From Phenylobacterium sp. Root1290 (GTDB taxonomy: Bacteria; Pseudomonadota; Alphaproteobacteria; Caulobacterales; Caulobacteraceae), in contig NZ_LMEE01000003.1 of assembly GCF_001425305.1 (NCBI RefSeq), forward strand, positions 372,001-436,000: a DNA stretch of 64,000 nt, written 5' to 3'. The position numbers and the translations under genes were made by a program. Position 1 is the stretch's first letter. The number at the start of each line of letters is the position of its first letter. Below, piece after piece: positions 40,958 to 49,520 of the stretch. The notes under the pieces were generated by a model. That model was not told the origin of the DNA. It saw nothing but the letters and a program-made list of their open reading frames with translations, and searched no databases.

Positions 40958-40984
40958 AAAAAGGCCCTCCCGCGAGGGAGGGCC
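40958..40984 (-). terminator. Rho-independent terminator of the thiolase gene
   Basis: GGCCCTCCC and GGGAGGGCC form a perfect 9-bp stem with a GCGA tetraloop, followed on the minus strand by TTTTT (AAAAA at 40958-40962). It lies 22 bp past the thiolase stop and insulates secA. Confidence 0.9.
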
Positions 40985-41006
40985 TGATCCTTAGGCAAAG
41001 TCGAAA

Positions 41007-46335: not shown

Positions 46336-46550
46336 GCAGCGAGGGTCGCGAAGACGCGGGTCATTTGTGGAAAGCCCCCGCGTGGCGGGGCGATCTATGC
46401 GATCTCTTCAGGGCGCTCGACAGCTGGGTCCGTAGGTGCGGAACCATCACGCGGCTGGAGCGCCGATAGCGCCACGAATGTTGCGGCGCAGCAGGGATAT
46501 GACTGGCGGCGCGTGGAAAGTCAAGTTTGGCAAGGGATTTGGGGCTGGCG

Positions 46551-47066
46551 ATGATCGAACTGCCGGATGATCTGCCGCTGACGGAGCGTAGCGTGGTGCG
46601 GGTGGTGGTGCGCGATTCCGAGGGGCGGATCCTGTTGTTCCTCACCCGCGACGTCACCGAGCCGGAGCAGGGGGAGTGGTGGGAGCTGCCCGGCGGAGGG
46701 ATCGATCCGGGCGAGACCCATCTCGACGCGGCGATCCGCGAGCTGCGGGAAGAGACCGGAATCGTGGCGCTGCCTGATCAGGTGGGACCGCCGCGCTGGC
46801 GGCGCACGGCGACCTTCCGATACCGGCAGGCCCGGCGGCTGCAGCATGAGGTGGTGGTCGAGGTCGCCCTGGACGAAGCCGGGCCCGCGATCGATGAGGC
46901 CGGCCGCCTGGACTACGAGAAGGAGGACTACACAGACTTCCGTTGGTGGCCGCCGGCCGAGATCAAATCGCATGCGGGCCGATTCTATCCCGGGCGGCTG
47001 CCGACGCTGCTGGCGGCGTTCCTGGCCGGCGAGGAAATCGACGAGCCATTCGAAGTCTGGTCCTGA
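46551..47066 (+). CDS. Nudix hydrolase
   Basis: The 171-residue protein has a complete Nudix box (GGGIDPGETHLDAAIRELREETGI) at about 54-76, which binds the metal and the diphosphate of a nucleoside diphosphate-X substrate. The start is ATG 46551 (MIELPDD) with a GGGGC stretch 6 bases upstream; an in-frame TTG at 46527 is not needed. The C-terminal part YEKEDYTDFRWWPPAEI is typical of NUDIX proteins of the MutT/ADP-ribose branch, but the substrate is not clear. It faces away from the helicase gene and comes 42 bp before mutT on the same strand, so the two may be co-transcribed. Confidence 0.9.
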   Translation: MIELPDDLPLTERSVVRVVVRDSEGRILLFLTRDVTEPEQGEWWELPGGGIDPGETHLDAAIRELREETGIVALPDQVGPPRWRRTATFRYRQARRLQHEVVVEVALDEAGPAIDEAGRLDYEKEDYTDFRWWPPAEIKSHAGRFYPGRLPTLLAAFLAGEEIDEPFEVWS

Positions 47067-47108
47067 ACACCGCTTGCCTTTCCGCGCGCATCCCGCAAGG
47101 AAGCGGGC

Positions 47109-47519
47109 ATGTCCGAACCCAAGCGCATGGTCCTCGTCGCCGCCGCGGCGCTCATCGATTCCGATGGTCGGGTGCTGATCTGCCAACGGCCGCCAGGCAA
47201 GCAGTTGGCGGGGCTCTGGGAGTTTCCGGGCGGCAAGGTCGAACCGGGCGAGACGCCTGAGCAATGCCTGATCCGCGAGCTGGACGAGGAGCTGGGAATT
47301 CAGGTCTCGCACGCCTGCCTGGCGCCCTTCGTGTTCGCCAGTCACACCTATGAGGACTTCCATCTGCTCATGCCGCTGTACCTGGTGCGGCGCTGGGACG
47401 GCGTCGTCACCGCCAAGGAGCACTCCGGCCTCGCCTGGGTGACGCCGATGAAGTTGGCCGACTATCCCATGCCGCCTGCCGATGCGCCGCTGGTGGCGTG
47501 GCTTCGCGATCTGATTTGA
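47109..47519 (+). CDS. mutT: MutT-like 8-oxo-dGTP diphosphatase
   Basis: The 136-residue Nudix enzyme removes 8-oxo-dGTP from the nucleotide pool and prevents AT to CG transversions. The Nudix box is GGKVEPGETPEQCLIRELDEELGI (about 42-65). The text RVLICQRPPGKQLAGLWEFPGGKVE and HTYEDFHLLMPLYLVRRWDG are typical of MutT in alphaproteobacteria, and the argJ-mutT order is one I recall from that group. Length matches. A helicase and another Nudix gene lie between it and argJ here. It is close to oxyR, so oxidative-stress genes cluster at this point. Confidence 0.9.
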   Translation: MSEPKRMVLVAAAALIDSDGRVLICQRPPGKQLAGLWEFPGGKVEPGETPEQCLIRELDEELGIQVSHACLAPFVFASHTYEDFHLLMPLYLVRRWDGVVTAKEHSGLAWVTPMKLADYPMPPADAPLVAWLRDLI

Positions 47520-47535
47520 CGGGCGGGCGGGCACG

Positions 47536-47571
47536 AAAAAGGCCCGCGGTGAGCTCGGATCACCGCGGGCC
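47536..47571 (-). terminator. strong Rho-independent terminator on the minus strand
   Basis: GGCCCGCGGTGA and TCACCGCGGGCC form a perfect 12-bp stem with a 7-base loop. A U-run (TTTTT, from AAAAA at 47536-47540) occurs only on the minus side; the plus side continues TCTCGGGG. No minus-strand protein gene lies upstream of it, so it probably ends a non-coding transcript. Confidence 0.8.
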
Positions 47572-47734
47572 TCTCGGGGCCGAAGCTAGCTAGCCTCCGA
47601 CCGGGTCCAAGACGGGTTGCGAACTGGACGCTCTCAGGTTGAACCCGAGTCCATGCTCAACGCCAGCGCCATGTCGCCCACGGAGTTGGGGCGAAATGTC
47701 GCACCAATCGGGCCGATCCAGCAGGCTGGGGCGC
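47536..47734 (-). ncRNA. candidate small RNA opposite oxyR (OxyS-like position)
   Basis: The gap 47572-47791 has no credible ORF on either strand. A minus-strand transcript starting in the oxyR promoter would run about 200 bases to the strong terminator at 47536. Inside it, CTCGGGT-TCA-ACCTGAG forms a 7-bp stem-loop (GU allowed), flanked by GGAC / GTCC. The placing is that of E. coli OxyS: divergent from oxyR, OxyR-operator in between. The 5-prime end is a guess based on a possible CTTATC -10 at 47746-47741. There is no transcript evidence and no sequence likeness to OxyS is claimed. Confidence 0.35.
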
Positions 47735-47740
47735 GGGTGC

Positions 47741-47788
47741 GATAAGGCTTGTTCCGGTTGCGGGCGCATTCAGTAAGACTAACTTATC
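47741..47788. promoter_or_regulatory. candidate OxyR binding region
   Basis: GATAAG at 47741 and CTTATC at 47783 are inverted 36 bases apart, and the right one lies in TAAG-ACTAA-CTTA (47774-47786), a LysR-type dyad just before the oxyR ATG. On the minus strand this reads GATAAGTTAGTCTTAC, partly matching the OxyR ATAG-type half-site. It would allow self-control and activation of a divergent minus-strand promoter. Confidence 0.4.
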
Positions 47789-47791
47789 TGC

Positions 47792-48661
47792 ATGCCGACC
47801 CTGAGACAGCTGCGATACCTGACCGCCCTGGCCGACGAGCGGCACTTCGGGCGGGCGGCGGCGGCCTGCCACGTCACCCAGCCAGCGCTTTCCATGCAGA
47901 TCCGCGACCTGGAGGCCGAGCTGGACCTGGTGCTGGTCGAGCGCGGGCGCAGCGGGGCGGTGCTGACCGAGGAGGGGGCGGCCCTGGCCGAGCGGGCGCG
48001 GGCCCTGACGGCGGGTGTGAAGGATCTTGAGGACTTCGCGCGCGAGAGGCGCGGCGCCCGCTCGCGGCGGCTGTCGTTGGGAATGATCCCTTCGGTCGCG
48101 CCCTACCTGCTGCCCAGGGTCCTGCCGATGCTGCAGGCGGCGATCCCGGAGCTGGACCTGAAGGTCCGGGAGACTCAGACGGCGCAACTGATGACCGAAC
48201 TGGCGGCTGGCGAGCTGGACGCGGTGATCGCGGCGCTGCCGCTGGCGACCGAAGGAATCGAGGCGGTCCCGCTGTTCGACGACCCGTTCCTGCTGGCCAG
48301 TCCGGCCGACGCGCCGATGGCGGCGAGCGACCCGCGCAGCCTGCCGGCGGACAGGCTGCTGTTGCTCGAGGAGGGCCATTGCCTGCGCGACCACGCGCTG
48401 GGCGTCTGCGAGATCAGCGACCTGTCGACCTTCGGCGCCACCAGCCTGACGACGTTGCTGCAACTGGTGGCGCATGGGCAAGGGGTGACCCTGCTGCCGC
48501 AGATGGCGGCGGCCGACATCAGCGACCCCCGGATTTCGCTGGCTCGCTTCCCCGAGCCGCAGCCTCGCAGGACGATCGCGATGGCCTGGCGCGGCGCCTC
48601 GGCCCGCAAGCGTCAGCTGAAGGACATCGCCGCCCGGATCGGAGCTGCCCATGACGGCTGA
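47792..48661 (+). CDS. oxyR: hydrogen peroxide-sensing regulator OxyR
   Basis: The 289-residue LysR-type regulator has the N-terminal winged HTH (LRQLRYLTALADERHFGRAAAACHVTQPALSMQIRDLE) and the OxyR redox pair: Cys197 in LEEGHCLRDHALGV and Cys206 nine residues on, the same spacing as Cys199 and Cys208 of E. coli OxyR. Further agreement is IPSVAPYLLPRVLPML, ATSLTTLLQLVAHGQGVTLLP and EPQPRRTIAMAWR. Peroxide oxidises the pair to a disulfide and activates transcription of catalase and similar genes. No ribosome site is clear upstream. Its end overlaps the glycerate kinase gene by 11 bases. No catalase or ahpC gene lies nearby. Confidence 0.93.
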   Translation: MPTLRQLRYLTALADERHFGRAAAACHVTQPALSMQIRDLEAELDLVLVERGRSGAVLTEEGAALAERARALTAGVKDLEDFARERRGARSRRLSLGMIPSVAPYLLPRVLPMLQAAIPELDLKVRETQTAQLMTELAAGELDAVIAALPLATEGIEAVPLFDDPFLLASPADAPMAASDPRSLPADRLLLLEEGHCLRDHALGVCEISDLSTFGATSLTTLLQLVAHGQGVTLLPQMAAADISDPRISLARFPEPQPRRTIAMAWRGASARKRQLKDIAARIGAAHDG

Positions 48662-49520
48662 GACGTGGCTGGCGCAGTTCATGGCTCGGGAGCGGCTGCC
48701 GCAGAGCTATGGGCGGGTCGTTCAGGATGTCGCCTTGCCGCTGGCCGATCAGATCGTCGCCGCAAGCAAGCCAGGCGGCATCGTGGTTGGGATCTGCGGC
48801 GCGCAGGCCAGCGGCAAGTCGACCTTGACCGCGGTGCTGGCGCGGCTGGTGGAGGACAGGGGCCTGAAGACGGCCTTGTTCTCGCTGGACGATCTCTACC
48901 TGACGCGGGCCGAGCGACAGGCGCTGGCGGAAGGCGTCCATCCGTTGCTGGCGGTGCGCGGGGTTCCGGGCACCCATGACGTGGCCCTGGGCGTTCGGTT
49001 GCTGGCGGACCTGCGCCGGCCCGGGGCTCACGAACTGCCGGTGTTCGAGAAGGCGCGCGACGATCGGCGCGCCGAGGGCGCGGTTTTCGATGGGCCGGCG
49101 GACGTGGTGCTGTTCGAAGGCTGGTGCGTGGGCGCGCGGCCGCAGCCGCCGGGAGAGCTGGCGGCCCCGATCAATGCGCTGGAGGCGCAGGACGACCCCG
49201 ACGGGATCTGGCGGACTTACGTCAATACGGCCCTGGCCGGGCCGTATCAGGCGATGTTCGGTGCGCTGAACATGCTGGTGCTGCTGCAGGCGCCGAGTTT
49301 CGAGGTGGTGCTGGCCTGGCGGATCGAGCAGGAGCGCAAACTGCGCGAGCGGCTGGCGCGCGAGGGCGCGGATACGTCACGCACCATGAGCGATGCGCAG
49401 GTCGGGGCCTTCATCGCCCACTACGAGCGGCTCACGCGGTGGATCCTCGAAGAAATGCCGGGCCGGGCCGATGTCGTGGTCGGGTTGGACGCGGAGCGGC
49501 GGCCGAGCCTGCGGTCATGA
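48651..49520 (+). CDS. D-glycerate 3-kinase family (P-loop kinase)
   Basis: The 289-residue P-loop kinase resembles plant-type glycerate 3-kinase (GLYK) and phosphoribulokinase-like enzymes. The Walker A motif is GICGAQASGKST (47-58); ALFSLDDLYLTRAERQALA, HPLLAVRGVPGTHDVAL, PVFEKARDDR and DVVLFEGWCVGARPQP follow in family order. It phosphorylates glycerate to 3-phosphoglycerate, the end of a glyoxylate or photorespiration-like route. The start overlaps the oxyR end, so both are probably on one message, an odd partner for oxyR. There are no other glyoxylate genes nearby. Confidence 0.87.
   Translation: MTAETWLAQFMARERLPQSYGRVVQDVALPLADQIVAASKPGGIVVGICGAQASGKSTLTAVLARLVEDRGLKTALFSLDDLYLTRAERQALAEGVHPLLAVRGVPGTHDVALGVRLLADLRRPGAHELPVFEKARDDRRAEGAVFDGPADVVLFEGWCVGARPQPPGELAAPINALEAQDDPDGIWRTYVNTALAGPYQAMFGALNMLVLLQAPSFEVVLAWRIEQERKLRERLAREGADTSRTMSDAQVGAFIAHYERLTRWILEEMPGRADVVVGLDAERRPSLRS

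Follow-up and report, generated by a model that had tools for sequence, protein, structure and literature searches.

The gap beside a second-copy oxyR gene is very probably the scar of a deleted catalase gene

The gap that separates two plus-strand genes, one mutT-like and the other oxyR-like (positions 47520-47791 of the window, the whole 64,000-nucleotide stretch analysed here), is very probably the scar of a deleted catalase gene, and the hairpin kept within it is most likely a stop between transcription units that face each other. In the ancestor, oxyR and katA would have been transcribed in opposite directions out of a common promoter region, an arrangement seen in many Rhizobiales. A deletion, of an estimated 1.4 kb judging from where the gaps match in a catalase profile, would have removed the catalase gene from its leader to about codon 446, leaving the final ~37 codons together with the terminator and the operator on the oxyR side. 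The hairpin would be the old katA terminator, now acting as a transcription stop between facing units: it may close off the rightward gene at its 3' end (this gene is mutT in the window and rsgA in the sister clade), and its T-run may keep leftward transcripts from entering that gene antisense. The homology, the anatomy, the conservation and the differing fates of the locus are demonstrated by the comparisons below; that the deletion was single, how long it was and what the hairpin does now are inferences. What appears to be an orphan terminator would then be explained as a gene scar, a stop signal that outlives its gene. The features concerned are collected in Table 1.

Table 1. Position, strand and principal support of the features in and around the gap (positions in the window).
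Feature	Position	Strand	Support
mutT-like Nudix gene, convergent to the presumed lost katA	47109..47519	+	TIGR00586 101.0 bits, cut-off 97.9
T-run 3' of the hairpin	47536..47540	- (AAAAA on +)	4-6 T in the 8 bases past the stem in 11/11 scars
Terminator-like hairpin, 12 bp stem, loop TCCGAGC	47541..47571	-	132/132 pair cells standard, 11 genomes
Probable katA 3'-end relic (catalase C-terminus), broken frame, plus spacer to the hairpin	47572..47705	-	DNA profile 41.6 bits
Poorly conserved stretch from relic to dyad, with the proposed -10 CTTATC (47746-47741)	47706..47771	-	Pairwise difference 0.22-0.79
LysR-type dyad in the oxyR promoter, probable OxyR operator (predicted)	47772..47788	.	First half-site core kept in 11/11
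oxyR second copy, 289 aa, cysteine motif GHCLRDHALGVC	47792..48661	+	NCBIfam OxyR model 235.8 bits, cut-off 329

An earlier note on this DNA had described the gap as holding no credible protein gene and as ending in a perfect 12-bp stem whose U-run faces the minus strand, and both descriptions were borne out. Neither the 59-aa minus-strand ORF nor the 45-aa plus-strand ORF of the gap had a Pfam match. Pairing within the hairpin was perfect over its 12 pairs (47541-47552 with 47560-47571) around a loop of 7, with an extra outer A-T pair, and the mutT-like gene ended 21 bases before the stem. Past the stem, the minus-strand tail contained 6 T in 8 bases vs 2 of 8 in the plus-strand tail, and across the 11 genomes with a scar the minus tail had 4-6 T of 8 and the plus tail 2-4. 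The hairpin at 47541-47571 was not listed by a terminator scan of the window, at a guess because the T-run was swallowed by G-T pairs. At up to 3 mismatches the hairpin was observed once in the 64-kb window and in none of 100 shuffles. A dispersed repeat was rejected as its source: at the same tolerance 10 of 101 genomes had the hairpin, one copy each, and the copy of an additional genome, G204, has 4 mismatches. Elsewhere in the window, a second perfect hairpin of 10 bp was observed at 40962-40985; it follows an A-run on the plus strand, so that here too the T-run is on the minus strand.

We compared the window with 101 genomes of the same genus, and at locus level with the ten others that carry the window's type of oxyR. 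This type was found in 11 of the 101 genomes at E 1e-90, the window's own genome counted, and the other ten copies were 78-85% identical to it. Three of the 11 (G240, G160, G241) carry an intact katA divergent from this oxyR, encoding 484 aa with a Pfam Catalase match of 618 bits, and a similar hairpin follows it. The earlier note had seen only a non-coding transcript as a client for the terminator, a view these three relatives contradict, as they show a likely client, the divergent catalase gene, of which the gap would be the remnant. All eight genomes with the oxyR and without katA, the window's included, kept the hairpin and T-run, in keeping with an expectation of the earlier note, that the terminator is conserved in relatives that keep oxyR there; from oxyR to the T-run end of the hairpin these eight loci (the window and seven relatives) measured 230-256 bases. 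Counting loci without oxyR as well, a scar consisting of katA-derived minus strand followed by the hairpin was present in 11 of the 101 genomes, the window's included. The rightward gene ahead of the hairpin is mutT in the window's clade (A) and rsgA in clade B, as identified in G088 by TIGR00157 (162.1 bits, cut-off 100). The window's genome also keeps two large catalases, at G000:C4:111634-113082 and G000:C1:801585-803042, with open frames of 721 and 730 aa, so catalase has not been wholly lost from it.

To measure homology of the gaps to the catalase 3' end, we built a profile from the C-terminal 90 residues of 12 catalases and searched ten gaps with it in all six frames. Four of the ten were matched, all in clade B, all on the minus strand and near the end of the profile, at 11-26 bits (E values of 3e-8 in G088, 2e-6 in G242, 2e-5 in G237 and 1e-3 in G236), and the best of 3000 shuffled frames reached 4.6 bits. 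The other six gaps, including that of the window, stayed below 4.6 bits with this profile, at noise level. Local DNA alignment to katA exceeded all 200 shuffles in three of eight gaps (G088, G242, G237); for the window's gap the score of 31 was no better than its shuffles, which had a mean of 28.1. Since the relic of the window is not directly recognisable as catalase, a link through its relatives was needed. A DNA profile built from the four clade-B relics, with the hairpin excluded, found all six other gaps (G216 58, G190 51, G098 45, G123 42, the window 41.6 and G207 29 bits), and the best of 600 shuffles scored 7.1 bits. We count it against the scar reading that the window's relic is known as catalase through relatives only. 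The hairpin itself probably goes back to the end of the lost katA.

A covariance model of the scar matched relic plus hairpin in 11 of the 101 genomes. Among these is G204, whose scar was found by this model at 101 bits and in which one frame resembles the catalase C-terminus. Six more genomes were matched at E 0.001 (G230, G227, G233, G240, G250, G231); the matches in G230, G227 and G233 are to the hairpin, with a different loop, and that in G240 is to the katA terminator. Because further genomes match in the hairpin, the stem itself is a common terminator type in the genus.

The window's genome has two oxyR genes, of which the one in the window is a second copy with a restricted distribution. 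The other (G000:C1:1665324-1666196, L214) lies at a different locus and is 43% identical to the window copy, and its type was matched in 193 of 199 genomes of the family at E 1e-40. It resembles the window copy in matching the same NCBIfam OxyR model and in having a cysteine motif of its own, GHCLRDHALAAC, and both copies fall under the equivalog cut-off of that model (Table 1; 217.9 bits for the other copy). The motif GHCLRDHALGVC, which we take to be the cysteine pair of the OxyR redox switch, is present in the window copy. As the earlier note had placed it, a LysR-type dyad is centred at 47780. Its minus-strand sequence is GATAAG-N5-CTTACT, and all 11 genomes with this type of oxyR kept AT[AC]AG, the core of the first half-site. 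The dyad is probably the OxyR operator. Downstream of oxyR and overlapping it by 11 bases is a kinase-like gene (48651-49520), which had no Pfam match and weak NCBIfam kinase matches.

The history of the locus was followed in an rpoB tree, for which 25 genomes were queried; five gave no match and two partial sequences were left out, so that 18 are in the tree. Four clade-A and two clade-B scar genomes formed one clade with a support of 100, and the katA-bearing G160 was placed outside it, with a sister-group support of only 59. The oxyR tree was unrooted, and this point and the low sister-group support are counted against the scar reading. Both clades have this hairpin and relic in common, which fits a single deletion, and we infer one event. 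Its junction may lie in or near the poorly conserved stretch between relic and dyad, where pairwise differences among eight genomes exceed the 0.05-0.39 observed in the relic (Table 1). Past the dyad, GTGAACTG is common to the three katA-bearing genomes and clade B and is not found in clade A. In three further genomes, G236, G204 and G207, the window's type of oxyR has been lost and the scar kept, with the hairpin still there. A short piece of each oxyR end is retained in G236. In G204 and G207, two genomes whose placement in the kinase tree is weakly supported, the interval from the scar to the next gene yielded no oxyR. As the hairpin is kept in the absence of this oxyR and its operator, an OxyR-controlled transcript need not be involved in what it does now.

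The hairpin and T-run are under strong selection. In eight genomes they showed 2 changes at 35 sites vs 167 changes at 121 fourfold sites of oxyR, a rate as low as which was reached in none of 20,000 resamplings, and no change was observed at the four aligned T columns. None of 500 shuffles reached the complete set of standard stem pairs seen in 11 genomes (Table 1), and the loop was identical in all 11. Compensatory changes were observed in three stem pairs, of which two are in G204 and the third in G207; neither genome has the window's type of oxyR. Retention of the T-run on the minus-strand side suggests that there is still a need to halt leftward transcription.

These observations also bear on a second explanation, in which the hairpin would serve the rightward gene alone (mutT or rsgA), as its 3' end, and the minus strand would be silent. 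It differs from the scar reading only in the role of the hairpin, so that the probabilities we attach to the two overlap, and we regard it as possible without favouring it. The hairpin lies ~9 to 53 bases past the stop of the rightward gene, and its retention, with compensatory changes, in G204 and G207 without oxyR and operator agrees with such a role; the T counts past the stem speak against it, being 2-4 of 8 on the plus side vs 4-6 on the minus side in all 11 genomes. The retained minus-facing T-run, which a plus-strand gene does not need, is also counted against the scar reading.

Selection on the catalase-derived core was mixed. It showed 138 changes at 129 sites vs 1.38 changes per oxyR fourfold site (P 0.001; eight genomes), and its maximum-likelihood speed of 1.31 was about a third of that of the oxyR fourfold sites (3.60). 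Measured against kinase fourfold sites, the core differed by 0.71-1.23 times as much in 32 pairs of genomes and by 0.31-0.34 times in two (34 pairs listed out of 55). It was clearly slow among G242, G237 and G236, with a ratio of 0.31-0.34 and, in a separate comparison, values of 0.05 vs 0.19. Depending on the yardstick, the core evolves at a third of the silent-site rate up to the full rate, a weak to moderate constraint. A core slower than a pure relic needs to be is a further point counted against the scar reading.

The slow core is among the points that favour a putative young OxyS-like RNA, in which the deletion would have joined an OxyR-controlled promoter to the katA terminator, giving a peroxide-induced regulatory RNA of ~200 nt on the minus strand. 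We consider this unlikely. Dyad, relic and terminator stand in the same order in eight genomes, the hairpin and its minus-facing T-run are strongly constrained, and the core changes less than oxyR fourfold sites do and is slow within the three clade-B genomes; however, 32 of the 34 listed pairs (of 55) had a core that diverged about as fast as kinase fourfold sites. With the hairpin, the window's minus strand folded better than shuffles (z -2.82), but without it there was no excess folding (z -0.33). Outside the hairpin, covariation was mixed when scored on a structure taken from the alignment itself. The number of paired cells was reached by 1 of 500 shuffles and the covariation score by 7 of 500, but 145 of 500 shuffles had as many as the 4 pairs that changed on both sides. 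By title, a 2022 paper of Krieger et al. reportedly derives a peroxide-responding small RNA from a peroxidase mRNA.

Other parts of the OxyS-like proposal fared unevenly. The -10 suggested by the earlier note is present as a sequence, reading CT[TC]ATC in the five oxyR-keeping genomes of clade A; it is absent at that place in clade B and so not common to both scar clades, and the -10 of katA may be gone with the deletion. The place opposite oxyR stands, and the hairpin best suits minus-strand transcripts, but Rfam gave no OxyS match over 46400-49200 at E up to 5 and nothing near a gathering score over the gap, and the hairpin is kept in three genomes without oxyR. Rfam models also gave nothing at gathering score on three related loci. 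We judge just as unlikely a scenario in which deletion of the catalase gene next to oxyR shortened its peroxide-induced mRNA to a small RNA that peroxide still induces. The genus would then be repeating, independently and still in progress, the route proposed for OxyS, with its intact, scarred and oxyR-less loci as the stages.

A frame starting at a conserved GTG (ATG in G204) is open for ~37-41 codons in six of the 11 relics (G098, G088, G242, G237, G236, G204), which is also counted against the scar reading. In the other five it is broken in different ways, by different stops in G190 and G216 and by shifts in the window, G123 and G207. That the relic still encodes a short catalase C-terminal protein is highly improbable, as the six open frames are offset by the stops or frameshifts of the other five, the window's included, and the relic pieces tried had no Pfam match.

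The scar reading places the locus beside known oxyR-catalase modules. Divergent oxyR-catalase pairs are described for Rhizobiales in PMC11975290, where the catalase gene is called a bifunctional catalase-peroxidase, whereas the katA of the relatives studied here is a Pfam Catalase. The same paper places the oxyR of C. crescentus upstream of an alkyl hydroperoxide reductase gene. The best 80 of 576 loci with OxyR relatives (45-56% identical) were by title mostly from Rhizobiales. In 25 of them the flank contained a divergent katA of 64-79% identity; given this frequency, the module looks Rhizobiales-like. The window resembles the Rhizobiales pair in its similar OxyR and, in its relatives, the divergent katA, but its own catalase would have been deleted, with only the 3' end and the terminator left. 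None of the papers listed in our literature searches reports a catalase scar or small RNA at this place. The small RNA of Krieger et al. 2022 is OxyS, according to a citing sentence in PMC11975290. With OxyS of E. coli the window shares a gap element opposite oxyR that is closed by a predicted intrinsic terminator; it differs in that its gap has no Rfam match, holds a catalase relic, lies beside a second-copy oxyR and is known from sequence alone. If a transcript exists, one genus would hold the stages from an enzyme gene to a small RNA, and the proposal on the origin of OxyS would be directly testable.
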